Source: Druceiella hillmani (taxonomy: Eukaryota > Arthropoda > Insecta > Lepidoptera > Hepialidae). Taken from it: DNA of 64,000 nucleotides. Where the stretch lies: positions 26,826,001 through 26,890,000 of the forward strand of contig JAYKKI010000029.1 in the NCBI GenBank assembly GCA_039881145.1, given 5' to 3'. The stretch's first letter is position 1; every line of letters starts with the position of its first letter. Under the pieces are notes generated by a model. It saw nothing but the letters and a program-made list of their open reading frames with translations. It had not been told where the DNA came from and did no database searches. Positions 2,966 to 52,255 of the stretch are shown piece by piece. The position numbers and the translations under genes are program-made.

Positions 2966-3039
<74 letters not shown>
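2966..3039. repeat. (TA)n microsatellite, left of Helitron remnant
   Basis: About 37 uninterrupted TA units. A second long TA tract begins at 4436, so the Helitron remnant between them is bracketed by the same simple repeat. Helitrons insert between A and T, so insertion into a TA tract would give this picture. Confidence 0.95.
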
Positions 3040-3043
<4 letters not shown>

Positions 3044-3164
3044 TAAAGTAAGTATATAATGTGCATGCTGCTAAAACTCAGAAACGAGTCCCGGTACGAT
3101 CAAGGGAGTTATATGGTGTGGTAGCCTTATATCCTCCATACACGAAGAAGGTTCCCGTTTAAAC

Positions 3165-3208
3165 CTAAAGGGCGTGCCCTACCTAAGGTTGAAAATTTCG
3201 CCCTTTAG
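3165..3208. repeat. 10-bp inverted repeat at the edge of the heat-shock-element array
   Basis: Arms ctaaagggcg (3165-3174) and cgccctttag (3199-3208) are perfect reverse complements with 24 nt between them. A smaller palindrome, agggc-gt-gccct, lies at 3169-3180. The right arm overlaps the first pentamer of the adjacent array. The role is unknown; a structure belonging to the Helitron's 5' part is possible. Confidence 0.6.
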
Positions 3209-3401
3209 AAATTTCCAGAACATTCGAGAGTATTTGAGAGCATTCCACAACATTCCAGAACATCCCGGAATGTTGTGGAATGTTTGGGAATGGTTTCAAT
3301 TATTCGGAAACATCCAGGAACTTCCCAGATCATTGTGGAACATTCCAGAACCCTCTCGAATGTTGTGAACTGTTCTGGAATATTGTGGACCATTCGAAGT
3401 C
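3207..3401 (+). promoter_or_regulatory. Heat-shock-element array, about 39 in-phase pentamers
   Basis: From 3207 the sequence divides into consecutive 5-bp blocks without slipping: AGAAA TTTCC AGAAC ATTCG, then AGAGT ATTTG AGAGC ATTCC, and so on to GGACC ATTCG AAGTC at 3401. Blocks alternate between nGAAn-like and nTTCn-like, which is the binding unit of heat shock factor; three alternating units suffice for a trimer. Some blocks are mutated (ACAAC, GTTGT, ATCCC, GGTTT), but the phase is kept for about 195 bp. A TATA box follows at 3437 and a Helitron reading frame at 3627. The alternation also creates open frames on both strands (3174-3511), which I take as artefacts. HSF binding is inferred from the motif. 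Confidence 0.8.
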
Positions 3402-3436
3402 ATTTTTTGTATGGGTGGGGCTACCCATTGGTAGGA

Positions 3437-3446
3437 GTATATAAAG
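3437..3446 (+). promoter_or_regulatory. TATA box of the heat-shock-like promoter
   Basis: gtatataaag lies about 36 bp after the last pentamer of the array. Transcription would be expected to start about 25-30 bp downstream, near 3465-3475. This leaves a leader of about 155 nt, rich in 'gtgaa/aagtg' words, before the ATG at 3627. Long, A-rich, G-poor leaders are typical of insect hsp70 genes; that likeness is an impression, not an alignment. Confidence 0.65.
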
Positions 3447-3626
3447 CAATATCCGTCGTGAGTTCGAACGTTAGTTTTTATCACTGAAGTGCAGAGAGTG
3501 AATAAAAACAAACAGTGAAGTGTAAGTAATCAAGGTGATAGTGACTAAATATAAAGTGTGAAAAGTGTTTAAAGGGTACTTAGTGTTTTTTTTAAGAAAA
3601 AGTTGATTTGATTAATATTTTATACA

Positions 3627-4432
3627 ATGCCCAAACGTAAAAAAGGAGGAGATTTTTTTTTGCCAGTTCTGAAGCTAAACGGCGAAAAGAAAAAGAAAAG
3701 CGAAAAAACGAAATAGCGCGAAGCACGTTTACGTTCCCAATAATCGAGAATGAGCACTGTGAGAAGCAGATAAACCGAAGAACAACGAAAAGAACGAATT
3801 AAAGAATCAAGAATTGCGACACAATCTTGTGATAAAAGTCTGCGAATGCAAGCCATCCCTGAAAATATCACTCTACGAGAAGCGCGGATGAGGACAAGTT
3901 CAAAGAGAGTATGAGTGATGACATACTGTACCAAATCCGACAAGCTCGTCCAGAAGTGGCCATCGAATTCAACGTCGACATCTTCAGTGAAACATTTATT
4001 CGACTAGAAGATAAATGTTTAGCAATAAAAAACCAGACCTTAGTACAACTTGGGATGCTAGCACCATGACAAGCTGTTTTCAGTGTGCTAAACTTCAAAA
4101 TTACAGAGGATAAATGCTACAACATCAACGAACTACTTTAATATATTGCTCTCAACAAACCACTCCTCAGTGACAATAAAAAAAAATTACATCGTTATCA
4201 TGGACCGGATCGACAACAACACTGGTGGAATTATTTACTTGGACGCACCAGGCGGCTCCGGGAAAACGTTTATAATAAATCTATTACTGGCAGAAATGTT
4301 ACGTACTAAACAACATATCGCACTTGCACTGGCATCACCCAGTTATGGAAGGAGGACTGCCTATTCCGCCCTATAATTACCGTTGAATATATTCGAAGAT
4401 TAATTCCCAGTATGTAAAATCTCAAGAGCACC
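3627..4432 (+). pseudogene. Helitron Rep/helicase remnant, internally deleted
   Basis: The frame opens MPKRKK at 3627, as Helitron proteins often do. After a frameshift in a T-run it continues as ASSEAKRRKEKEKRK, then (another frame) TEEQRKERIKESRIATQS and ENITLREARMRTSSKRV, the basic N-terminal repeats of the family. At 3911 it jumps directly to helicase-side sequence, MSDDILYQIRQARPE and RLEDKCLAIKNQTLVQLGM. A stop follows, and 4146-4376 carries DRIDNNTGGIIYLDAPGGSG, then KT: the Walker A motif of the PIF1-like Helitron helicase (APGGSGKT intact). The last recognisable residues are PVCKISRAP at about 4410-4430. The Rep (HUH) nuclease domain, expected between the two parts, is missing, as are all later helicase motifs. 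Several stops and frameshifts make it non-functional. Canonical ends (5' TC, 3' hairpin plus CTRR) were not established, though CTAG occurs at 4431-4434. Confidence 0.85.
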
Positions 4433-4433
4433 T

Positions 4434-4435
<2 letters not shown>

Positions 4436-4528
<93 letters not shown>
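4436..4528. repeat. (TA)n microsatellite, right of Helitron remnant
   Basis: About 46 TA units with one interruption (taaat) near 4479. It begins immediately after the last Helitron-like codons. Confidence 0.95.
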
Positions 4529-4530
<2 letters not shown>

Positions 4531-4766
4531 TGGATTCTATAATGTCAGAGTGTTTTGAAGTTACTAGTGTTTTTGTCTTGAAGTTTAGATTTAAAATCAA
4601 ATGATATTGGAAGATAGGTGATCAAAATTAAAAAGCCATCTGGTTAGAGGTTGAATTCTGAAGAGCCTTTCATAAAATCTTATGTTATAAAAAATGAACT
4701 ACGATATCTACATAGAACAATGGGTATCTGGAAATGTGGTCAAAGTACAAATAACTTGTAGAAATA

Positions 4767-5012
4767 ATGAATATATTTGGCGTTAATTTTGTAGAAATTC
4801 ATTATTCACAATTAAATGAAACTACGTGATGTAGTATTATTTCTACTTTCTTTACGTTCTTTACCACGACCTAGGTTTCGTTGTATTACAACATCTTCAG
4901 GTGGGATATTAGCAAAGATTTCTTTGCTAATATCTCAAAAAAAAAGGACGTGGTAAAGAACTTAAAGAAAGTAGAAATAATACTACATCACGTAGTTTCA
5001 TTTAATTATAGA
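4767..5012. mobile_element. MITE with 59-bp subterminal inverted repeats (copy 1)
   Basis: The arm at 4810-4868 is the reverse complement of 4951-5009 with a single mismatch. The centre carries a second perfect hairpin: gatattagcaaaga (4905-4918), loop tttt, and its complement at 4923-4936. A 40-bp leader at 4768-4807 (atatatttggcgttaatttt and on) is shared with the copy at 27.3 kb and with a fragment at 25.7 kb. It has no coding capacity. The family looks like a non-autonomous DNA element of foldback type; the mobilising transposase is unknown, and flanking target duplications could not be fixed. Confidence 0.8.
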
Positions 5013-5394
5013 TATAATTTAGGAAAATGAAAGCACCACATTTATTCTGATGTTAGAAATATATTTTTTAATGCTAGTACCCCCTCCAAAATTTCTATAT
5101 TAACTTTAAGGTTTAACTAGACATTTGTGTATTCTTATACGCTTTTTGACTGCCAAATTTGAAATATTTGGGTAAAATTCTTTCCGAGGAAAACGAATGT
5201 AACAGACTGACATGTTTTTTTTTCTGATGTAGACATAAAACACTTTAAATTGTAACCATTGTAAGTTATTCTATAAATAAATGTGTGAAATTAAATGTAT
5301 TTAATTTGTACCAACTTTCGGTCTTTATCTAGGCCATTTATATTCCCAGAGCACAATATGAATAGAGGCACAAAATGAAAAGTGTAATATAACC

Positions 5395-5779: not shown

Positions 5780-7770
5780 ACTTAACGTACATCGATTAGA
5801 TAATACTGATAGTAAAATTAAAATGAACCAATATTTTCTACAATCGTTAGAAAATTAAAAATTTGTAAATATCTACATGCCATATGGAAACGGCGTTTTT
5901 CGTCGCTTTTGGTACAAAATTATTGCAATTTTAAGATTCTTTAGTCGAACAAAATAGTGTTGTAATTTCATGACACATGGCTTCCATCATGTACATTTGT
6001 GAGCATGGAAATCATTAATACTAGCCATTTTCCCTTTCGCTAGGATTTGGTTCATGAATCTGAGAACCACATTTGCTTACAAATTTCGATTAAAATTATT
6101 CAAGGTATCTTATTATAAATTCAAAATATATACAAGTAGACCATTATGGGACCTACATTACGTATATACAGACATTTGGTCGACTGGTTTTTCAATTAAA
6201 ATTATTCAATCATTATAAGTTAACGTATTAATGTCTATATACTAATTGCTGGTAAAAATTGATACAAGAATTCGTTTCCTTCTATTTTCATATACCATTT
6301 ATTCAACCAAGACTCACAATGTACTAAATGAATATTCTACTCTTTATGATCATGTTTATAAAAAAGGCCTACATAGTAAATGCAATTCAAGTTACTGTGC
6401 TTGGAATGATGAGTTATTTGGTCTGTGTTGTTATATTTTCAGTTTTAATTTCTTTTTTTATAGCTTTTTCTTGAATTCCTTTTACGGTTCTAATGCTTTA
6501 TCCTTTTCTCCTTTTTTCTTGAATTTTCTTCGTTATCCTTTTTATTTTATCGATGCTTCTAATCATGCTTCTAAGACAGACATATAAAATATGAAATTGG
6601 TTGTCATTTCTTCCTTATTGGCTAGTTTTCTTCTTTGCTTGGCACAGGATATAACTGTTTTTAATTTGTGATACTATAGAAGAATCTGTTGATGTATTTC
6701 ATTAATTATTGATGAAATATATCAGCTCAGGATCTTCTTATGAAGATGCAATCAGATATCATAATGTTTCAAAGGTCGACTATTGGTTGGTACTCATTGG
6801 ATAATATATTGAATCGGATAAATTAGAGAGTCCAGGAATGAAATTAGCAGGCTTCATTTTGTTATTTAAGCGTGTAGGTAATGACAAAAGTCGTTGTCTT
6901 CTTATGCTAAACCAATTAATGAAATATTTCGGATGTGACTTATATTTTCGTATCTAATAAGGCGCAGCAAAAAGATTTACGGGATGCTAACAGTTTTTAA
7001 TCACTGAGTAAAAAAATTAAGTTGGGTTTATTTATTTTATATTAAGGCTAAGAATAAGAATAATCTCTCGATGGCACCAGGTAGAGTGGATAATCTAGGT
7101 TTCGAGAAAATAATCATTAGGAGATCAAATGAACTTCCTGTACTGTGCAGGTGACTACTAAGCTAGGTGTAGCCGATGTCGGTCCTTTTTGCTTGTTGTC
7201 CTTCAGAGCCAAAAACTACGGTATTTTGGAAGATACGTTTGTTAGTAGATTTCATCGAGGTTGCAAATATTATTTATGGGATATTTGAATCGTCTATTAT
7301 ATTTGCTAATAAGTGGTCAAATTTTTCTTTTTTAATTTCTTTGTAAGTACCTTGTTCAAATAGTTTAATTTTGCTGTAGACAATTTCGCCTTATGAAAAA
7401 TGTGAAAAAAATATAATGAAAATAATGCGTCTAAAATCCGAGACTACTAAACCCAGAATTATGGAAAAATAGAGGTTTTGTGAAGCCCAAGTAGAGGCTA
7501 TAGGAAAACAATATAGATGATTATAGATGTCACAATTGTTTAAATATATACCATGTTTTTGCGCCTGCGAGCGTATAGTCGACAATATATGTTTATTTTT
7601 ATGTATTCTCAACTAATTTTCTCACAAATCATGCGAGGTGGGAGCTTGAAATTGTCATAGTGATGTATTTTATTAGCTCATATATTTTTTACTAGTCTTA
7701 GTTTTTTTGAATTCTCTATATGTTATGGGTATCAATTGCTTTTTGATAATATTTTAAATAGTATTCTGGA
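5780..7770. other. Noncoding stretch without recognisable elements
   Basis: The longest frame (6246-6587, plus) gives a Phe/Ser/Tyr-rich hydrophobic peptide with no domain I recognise. 6560-6960 contains fragments that look vaguely protein-like but are full of stops. No repeat family member was identified. Confidence 0.4.
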
Positions 7771-49161: not shown

Positions 49162-49400
49162 TTAACGCCGAGTTTCAAATTATTCAATTTAATTGAGGTG
49201 ATTTAACGCTGAGTATCAAATTATTCAATATATTTCAGGTGATTAACGTCGAGTTTCAAATTATTCAATATAATTTAGGTGATTTACACCGAGTTTCAAA
49301 TTATTCAATATAATTCAGGTGATTTACGCCGAGTTTAAAATTATTCAATATAATTCAGGTAATTGACACCGTGTTTCAAATTATTATAATAAGTAAGGTT
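49162..49400. repeat. 40-bp minisatellite, six units
   Basis: The marker cgccgag / cgctgag / cgtcgag / caccgag recurs at 49166, 49207, 49247, 49287, 49327 and 49367, a spacing of 40 (first 41). Each unit contains gagtttcaaattattcaata, then a taattcaggtgattta-like stretch. The sixth unit is partial. Units are 80-95% alike by eye. It lies about 1.1 kb past the kekkon stop codon. Confidence 0.92.
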
Positions 49401-50527: not shown

Positions 50528-52255
50528 CTAGAGTGATACGAATTCAATAGGCTGAGAGGGATGCGACGGAGGTAACGGCTGAGGTTCTGAGCCAGGTAGC
50601 GACCACGTAGAACTGCCCGCTGCTGTCACACGTGGCCCCATATTGTCATAAGCTGGAGCAGCACAACAGGCACGAGCACGCCGTGGCAAGGTTGCGCCAC
50701 CACCCAATAAATCAGGATAGCGTTCGCTCGCTGCTACTTGCACGGAAATGAATATACCACCAAACGCTCGAGATGGCAACGCAAATTCTGGTGGTGGTGG
50801 TGGATAAGCACTCGGGTCACATCCCTCAATGGTTATGTGCACTGGCTCGAAGTTTCCGACGGCACTCGGTGATGAGGGTGAACGCTCGGCCAACTCGAGA
50901 TCAGATGGAGAGCCGAGATCTGCACTTGATCGCTCACAGCTTGTCGCGAGTGATGCATCAAGAAGCTTTTTCTCCTGATCAGTAAAGCTACGACTCGGCG
51001 GTACATGGTGTCGGCGTGCACGCCAACACGCACAGGCAAGCGCGAGGCCAAGAGCTGCAAGGGCACTGAAAGCGCCCCCAAGAGCTCCGAGCAACGCTGG
51101 GAGACCAGGAGCTGCGCGTGCTGTCTCAGCGTGCGCTCGCGGCAGAATAAGACTAATAGCTGTGCGTGCAACACCATTGGAGCTTCGAGCAAGACAGGCC
51201 CATTCACCGGCCGCATCGACAGTCACGTTGCTTAGGCTGACATTACTCCAGCGTGCTTTCGATACGTTTATGAGCTCTGTGTCGACAGTTGAGTCCGCAG
51301 CGGCTTCATCAATATTGGTCTCCGCAGCTATGGTACTATTCTCAAGCGGGGCGCCATTGAAAAACCATCGGATATGCGGCTCAGGATCTCCGTGTACTAA
51401 ACAACCAAATGTAACATCTCCACCAGGTTCAGCGCGTACGACTCGTGTCGAGGGTCGTACTTCGGGCGAACAACCCATTTGTGCGCTCGGTATGTCTCGC
51501 CAAGTATGATCCACGAGAGTAGAGGGCTCTGCGCACTTTAATTCCTCCGTTCCGAGATTGGTTGTTAGGAACCAATCACGAAAAGGACGGAGCAAACAGT
51601 CACAACGCCATGGGTTACCGGAGAGCGCGAGCGTTTTTAGAGATGGTAGATCGAAGGCGCGGACGTGGAGTTCAGCAAGACGATTACCACGCAGGTCCAC
51701 AGATTCAAGCGCCCGCAGATTCTGTAACGCTGTCGCGTGCACAAGTGTTAGGCGACAGTTTTGGGCATCGATGACGCGAAGGTGCGGAAGCGGTGGAAAC
51801 TGGTTAGCAATGAGTGCGGTAAGCGGATTGCCACTGAGTATGAGCAGGCGCAGACGATCGTTACCACGAAAGGTATCACGTGCAAGTTCGGCTAGCTCAT
51901 TGTCGGCAAGATCGAGCTCAACGAGGATACGCAGGTGTCGAAAAGCATCGCGATGTAGCGTTCGTAGATGCGTTGCACGCAGGTTGATACGTTGTAGGTT
52001 GAGGAGGTCGAGAGCAGCGAAGGCATCACGTGATAGTGTGCGTAGCTCATTGTCGTGAAGATCTAGAACTTGGATATCGGCAGAAAGAGGTGGCGGAGCT
52101 CGCAGACCAGCGCTTGCGCATACAGCGCTCTTCTTGCCGGAAGACCACTTGCAACGGCAGGCGGGCTCGCAGTCAGACCAGTCCCCCGCTGCGCGTGCTG
52201 CACATGCCAACAGCGCCGCCACCAGCCACCAGCCCGGCCGCCCACCGTTGCTCAT
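50528..52255 (-). CDS. Kekkon-type LRR-Ig transmembrane receptor
   Basis: 575 residues, one uninterrupted exon. A signal peptide (about 1-24, WWLVAALLACAARAAG) is followed by an N-terminal cap with Cys29, 33, 35 and 46. Seven leucine-rich repeats span about 60-215 (for example IQVLDLHDNELRTLSRDAF), and the C-terminal cap has Cys218, 220, 241 and 262. One Ig domain (about 266-371) has Cys285, Trp297 and Cys354, and contains four potential N-glycosylation sites (N306, 330, 338, 343). The membrane helix is at about 384-410, stopped by WRARRHH. The tail of about 165 residues contains FTDQEKKLLD, as in Drosophila Kek proteins, a Pro run, and ends EFVSL, compatible with a class II PDZ ligand. Domain order and length fit the kekkon family; which paralogue (Kek5/Kek6-like?) is not settled. 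The start is supported by an in-frame TAA 15 nt before the ATG (52271-52273). GC content is far above the flanking DNA. Family members act at the cell surface in EGFR, BMP or neurotrophin-like signalling; the role here is inferred. Confidence 0.93.
   Translation of the reverse strand: MSNGGRPGWWLVAALLACAARAAGDWSDCEPACRCKWSSGKKSAVCASAGLRAPPPLSADIQVLDLHDNELRTLSRDAFAALDLLNLQRINLRATHLRTLHRDAFRHLRILVELDLADNELAELARDTFRGNDRLRLLILSGNPLTALIANQFPPLPHLRVIDAQNCRLTLVHATALQNLRALESVDLRGNRLAELHVRAFDLPSLKTLALSGNPWRCDCLLRPFRDWFLTTNLGTEELKCAEPSTLVDHTWRDIPSAQMGCSPEVRPSTRVVRAEPGGDVTFGCLVHGDPEPHIRWFFNGAPLENSTIAAETNIDEAAADSTVDTELINVSKARWSNVSLSNVTVDAAGEWACLARSSNGVARTAISLILPRAHAETARAAPGLPALLGALGGAFSALAALGLALACACWRARRHHVPPSRSFTDQEKKLLDASLATSCERSSADLGSPSDLELAERSPSSPSAVGNFEPVHITIEGCDPSAYPPPPPEFALPSRAFGGIFISVQVAASERYPDLLGGGATLPRRARACCAAPAYDNMGPRVTAAGSSTWSLPGSEPQPLPPSHPSQPIEFVSL

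Follow-up and report, generated by a model that had tools for sequence, protein, structure and literature searches.

A long heat-shock-element array in the putative promoter of a Helitron family from the moth Druceiella hillmani

Mobile elements can rely on the heat shock factor (HSF) of their host: ONSEN, a plant LTR retrotransposon and not a Helitron, uses it through a promoter motif. Among Helitrons, the closest described systems are those of Caenorhabditis. In C. elegans, HSF-1 binds the heat-shock elements (HSEs) of Helitrons and drives Helitron1_CE, and tandem overlapping HSEs are mentioned for Caenorhabditis Helitrons (available text of PMC6765114 and PMC6927752), which agrees with what the first-pass annotation of the present locus had stated about Helitron-borne HSEs in this genus. 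According to the available text of PMC6927752, a survey of genomes with annotated Helitrons detected HSE enrichment only in Caenorhabditis and dense HSE clusters in none of the others. In wheat, the promoter of the Helitron Feng8 responds to heat and is predicted to contain an nTTCnnGAAn element, and the Arabidopsis retrotransposon ONSEN is named alongside it (available text of PMC13286980). An article on insect Helitrons (PMC6544945) contains no mention of heat shock in the available part of its main text, and an earlier report of a heat-shock promoter in an insect Helitron was not found among the matches listed from the open-licence PMC literature.

Here we describe a Helitron copy with a long HSE array in a window of 64,000 nucleotides (the whole stretch of DNA that was analyzed) from the moth D. 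hillmani. Its features are collected in Table 1. As far as the available texts describe them, Helitron1_CE and HelitronY1_CE of Caenorhabditis resemble it in carrying dense HSEs, and Feng8 resembles it in having a Helitron promoter with an HSE-type element. The moth locus differs from the former in belonging to another phylum and in having about 38 continuous units in one register beside a TATA box and an initiator; it differs from the latter, a plant element with one short predicted motif, in the length of its array. An HSF-1-driven, transposase-bearing element is described in Caenorhabditis and a heat response has been demonstrated for Feng8, whereas for the moth array such a response is predicted. 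The likeness to ONSEN would lie in the reliance of a mobile element on host HSF.

Table 1. Features of the Helitron copy in the window
Positions	Strand	Feature	Basis or detail
2966..3039	.	(TA)37 at the place of the Helitron 5' end in other copies	repeat listing; alignment
3040..4436	+	decayed Helitron copy, truncated and with an internal deletion	homology to 20 genomic copies
3040..3207	+	5'-terminal part of the element, preceding the array	alignment of copies
3208..3397	+	heat-shock-element array	38 units (19 exact), GAA and TTC alternating
3425..3431	+	CCATTGG	sequence
3438..3446	+	TATA box TATATAAAG	sequence; TATATA in 19/21 aligned rows
3471..3476	+	initiator-like TTAGTT	family majority TCAGTT
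3477..3626	+	A-rich leader	sequence and alignment of copies
3627..3899	+	start of broken Helitron frame, MPKRKK...	ATG at 3627
3895..3903	.	junction of internal deletion	about 3899
4200..4373	+	PIF1-helicase-like fragment of Helitron protein	PF05970 match
4436..4528	.	(AT)n where family homology stops	repeat listing; alignment

The array is a real feature of the sequence. A single register is kept through all of its consecutive 5-bp blocks, in which GAA and TTC alternate; counted by hand, half of the units are exact, 16 of the 38 retain two of the three core letters and 3 retain one. The description of the array as phase-perfect in the first-pass annotation therefore stands for the register and fails for the letters. 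The core-letter match reaches 0.807 (80.7%), as compared with a window mean of 0.31 (sd 0.035), 0.509 at the next-best place in the 64 kb, a maximum of 0.50 in 100 dinucleotide-shuffled windows and a maximum of 0.43 when the array sequence alone was shuffled 1000 times. Signed autocorrelation of GAA/TTC gives negative values at lags of 5, 15 and 25 and positive ones at 10, 20 and 30. Thus, the enrichment over shuffled sequence and the 5-bp periodicity that the annotation had led us to expect are both present. By the usual definition of an HSE, at least three alternating nGAAn/nTTCn units in register, the array qualifies. Its exact runs of this length are limited to one of 4 units at 3208 and one of 3 units at 3338; an exact triple outside it, at 6516, is chance-like. 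The second-best score of 0.509 belongs to a tandem repeat of a 40-bp unit (49162-49385, 5.6 copies) and is probably due to the period of that repeat.

Downstream of the array, a TATA box, a leader and a Helitron reading frame follow in the order that had been annotated. Between the array and the TATA box lies CCATTGG, which we take to be an inverted CCAAT box; we liken the TTAGTT beyond the TATA box, degenerate in the window copy, to the initiator consensus that the family majority form TCAGTT resembles. The distance from the first T of TATATAAAG to TCAGT is 35 bp in the majority sequence of this first family (counted by hand). As in Caenorhabditis, the HSE-bearing promoter stands upstream of a transposase, and the Rep domain is found further downstream in a family copy.

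The window copy itself is decayed. Its homology to 20 fetched genomic copies sets in at about 2966-3147 and, in copies that have the second part, runs to about 4436; (TA)n also occupies the position of the 5' end in four other fetched copies (L028, L029, L031, L039). Both sides of the deletion junction align in 12 of the 20 copies, at a different and mostly larger distance. Stop codons break the reading frames, both Helitron ends are lost and the copy is without a Rep domain, and its helicase fragment scores below the curated cut-off of PF05970 (E 2.1e-05; 24.7 against 25.9 bits). A PDB search with two protein fragments gave six weak matches for one (best E 0.027, not Helitron) and none for the other. 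The label of Helitron remnant nevertheless holds, given the family ends and the Rep domain of another copy. As a dead relic, the window copy could offer HSF at most a stray landing site. In viral contigs, none of the 53 pattern matches of the helicase fragment was confirmed as a relative, and the Helitron 3' end had 0 matches; the six-unit HSE pattern matched 15 stretches there.

Two other features of the window may be mentioned. A separate repeat at 4745-5013 was also detected by blastn at six of the loci from which the 20 copies were taken (L024, L025, L028, L030, L033, L039), and its halves look mutually inverted by eye, like a fold-back element. A single-exon-looking protein with leucine-rich repeats and an Ig domain, similar to leucine-rich repeat-containing protein 24, is encoded at 50528-52255 on the minus strand; among the best 120 of its 406 matches, the best named relatives are from Lepidoptera (up to 59% identity), and the first named match clearly outside Lepidoptera has 43%.

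The family was searched for in the assembly from which the window comes (2.59 Gb, 181 contigs). With positions 3150-3625 as the query, 40 of 1204 first-look candidates were scored; all 40, including the window, match over at least 400 bases, and the other 39 do so at 79-84% identity. Twenty of these 39 places were taken with 10-kb context for alignment. The 5' end A|TCAATATATATTATAAAAG begins as A|TC in 8 of the 20 copies, while 5 differ, 4 have (TA)n and 3 are unclear or without an end. The 3' end GAGCGAAGCCGGGTACCCCAGCTAG|T is followed by T in all 11 copies whose printed end contains it, with exact CTAG/CTAA in 7 of the 11, and the 26-bp 3' end occurs at 368 genomic sites with at most 2 mismatches (control 0). 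One of six open reading frames tested from the copies contains Helitron_like_N (PF14214; L025:3910-4767, E 7.2e-17, over the cut-off), and the remaining five had no Pfam match. The 3' end of one copy (L042) folds into a hairpin no better than its shuffles (z 0.54). From its ends and its Rep domain, the element is assignable to the Helitrons. The fetched copies are broken; the sampled copies are old, since they differ by 6-10% from the majority and by at least 11% from one another. As regards the proposed seeding of heat-responsive promoters, 8 of about 11 open reading frames (120 aa or longer) that lie beyond the element at these 20 loci had no Pfam match over the curated cut-off.

The array is a trait of this family. 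HSE pairs in the 20 copies, counted per 100-bp bin, number 2.9 and 3.65 where the array mainly lies, 0.60 and 1.40 at its two edges and 0-0.25 in every other bin. Because the first query contained the array, copies were also picked by an array-free, 30-bp promoter pattern downstream of it, which has 413 genomic sites at up to 3 mismatches (control 0). In each of 20 copies drawn from the 29 exact sites listed, the array scores above all 50 shuffles of its own sequence, narrowly so in L119 (0.53 against 0.50). The annotation had made its proposal depend on other Helitron copies carrying the array, and the 39 further scored places and these 20 sites show that they do. Array length equals that of the window copy modulo 10 in 13 of 20 other aligned copies.

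Exact runs of six HSE units occur 42 times genome-wide (41 places by hand count), as opposed to a single occurrence of the reversed pattern. We fetched 40 of the 41 places. Four belong to the first family (L047, L053, L061, L063), and about five represent a second Helitron family, two of these being linked to it by no more than 38-41 bp of matching sequence. When clustered automatically, both Helitron families fell together with a further repeat through short matches (15 members), and they were separated by eye; L073 and L082 also match the first family in the masked comparison. For this sister family, 40 of 103 first-look candidates were scored and 21 copies sampled. Its nucleotide homology to the first family lies downstream of the array, and its protein start MPQRKRRGNLAYNESKRKKQKE is related to the MPKRKK start. 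In each of the 21 copies the array outscores all 50 shuffles of that copy, and the majority sequence reaches 0.90 across 20 units. Downstream of the array, about 12 of the 21 have an exact TATA(A/T)A, and in the majority sequence TATA and TCAGT are 31 bp apart (counted by hand). HSE pairs number 11 in the first majority and 25 in the sister majority, which also has 15 HSE triples. The GAAnnTTC spacers are mainly TA and TG in the sister family and CA in the first. The GAA/TTC cores are thus kept between the families while the spacers differ, and the decamer profiles agree, with the qualification that the decamers were chosen by core match and so lean to the cores. Comparison of the copies shows that the phasing and the layout of TATA box and putative initiator are common to the two diverged families.

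The reading that we favor, with a probability of roughly 0.7, is that the array is the HSF-dependent promoter region of a Helitron lineage, preserved here in a relic. The proximal promoter would be made of tandem GAAnnTTCnn decamers, with HSF molecules occupying adjacent sites over about 200 bp; once bound, they would turn on transcription at the TATA box and initiator immediately beyond the array, so that heat stress in the animal would lead to transposase being made. The arrangement suggests that heat once switched on this Helitron. Several points count against this interpretation, namely that half of the units in the window are inexact, that TATA(A/T)A is kept in only part of the sister copies and that the fetched copies are old and broken. 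Moreover, additional conservation of the core letters, as a sign of selection, was seen in neither Helitron family: cores and spacers score 0.911 and 0.903 in the first (p 0.30) and 0.835 and 0.828 in the sister family (p 0.31). Decay after insertion would hide such selection. Because neither family shows better core conservation, we infer the function, including putative HSF binding, heat induction and heat-linked transposition, from the layout and its recurrence.

The same lack of core-specific conservation would be expected if the array were a decamer minisatellite or fold-back stretch, that is, a tandem 10-bp palindrome spread by slippage that resembles HSEs and has no role for heat shock factor. 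In line with this explanation, 10 bp is the commonest size among indels longer than 1 bp inside the array (12 cases; nine of 8 bp were also noted, as were 29 indels of 1 bp), and an HSE-like palindrome forms the terminal hairpin of a third repeat. It is nonetheless unlikely, considering that the array directly precedes a TATA box and initiator in two diverged families with common GAA/TTC cores and different spacers, and that functional HSE-bearing Helitron promoters have been published (available text of PMC6765114 and PMC13286980).

Capture of the upstream region of an hsp gene, which the Helitron would have used ready-made, had been proposed for the origin of the array and was not borne out by the hsp70 genes of this genome. 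The comparison covered the 941-bp upstream regions of five full-length hsp70 matches (L090-L094; blastn, word size 7). These promoters are like the array in combining HSEs with a TATA box, and in two of the five (L093, L094) HSE, CCATTGG and TATATAA even stand in the same order. However, all five share only the HSE motif with the array: none is alignable to it, the two blastn matches having a length of 25 bp at E 0.009 and of 22 bp at E 0.38, and they contain 0-8 exact HSE pairs per 941 bp in exact runs of at most 4 units. The array is, furthermore, already present in two diverged Helitron families. We consider such a capture improbable in general and reject it for the five regions compared. 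The two hsp70 genes with CCATTGG lie on one contig and are 88% identical over 281 bp reaching the coding start; their upstream regions share HSE, CCATTGG and TATATAAG. Least probable of all is that the array serves a different factor, for instance Scalloped/TEAD (CATTCC/GGAATG) or STAT (TTCnnnGAA). TEAD words do number 6 in the window array and 5 in the first-family majority, as against at most 3 in shuffles, but there are 0 in the sister majority with all its HSE pairs and triples, and the STAT spacing counts are 0, 1 and 0, so that both factors are disfavored.

HSE runs were also observed in other repeats among the fetched six-unit places. A third repeat family comprises ten clustered members (L044, L050, L056, L057, L059, L065, L069, L070, L075, L082) and three recognized by end sequence only (L062, L067, L080). 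Its 3' end resembles that of a Helitron, CTRR|T (CTAG|T), and is immediately preceded by a palindrome of six exact HSE units; 4 of the 13 members have the exact CTRR with a T after it, and the three ends that were folded give hairpins of 11-13 pairs with z from -1.5 to -3.5. Neither a 5' end nor a Rep domain was found for this repeat, and its Helitron label is therefore tentative. A further family (L054, L072, L076, L078, L079, L081) carries roughly twelve HSE units in an array, and smaller groups (L051/L060, L064/L071, L073/L077/L083) each carry an exact six-unit run, hence several repeats of this genome hold HSE arrays. It may be speculated, as a rather doubtful extension, that moth Helitrons as a group adopted the HSE as a standing part, in the form of a promoter array in the two sister families and of a terminal hairpin in the third repeat. 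If so, HSF could act both on transposase expression and at the end of the element, and several families of this sort could, by spreading, have rewired the heat-shock response of the host independently of Caenorhabditis.

Helitrons with heat-shock promoters are a known kind of element; what appears to be new is that the host is a lepidopteran and that the array is so long and so ordered. The moth family is of note for falling outside the range from which this kind had been described. The occurrence of a long ordered array in two diverged lepidopteran Helitron families suggests that Helitrons adopted the heat-shock response more than once. It also makes testable whether stress-linked transposition, together with the copying of HSE arrays, rewires heat-responsive genes in a large insect genome.
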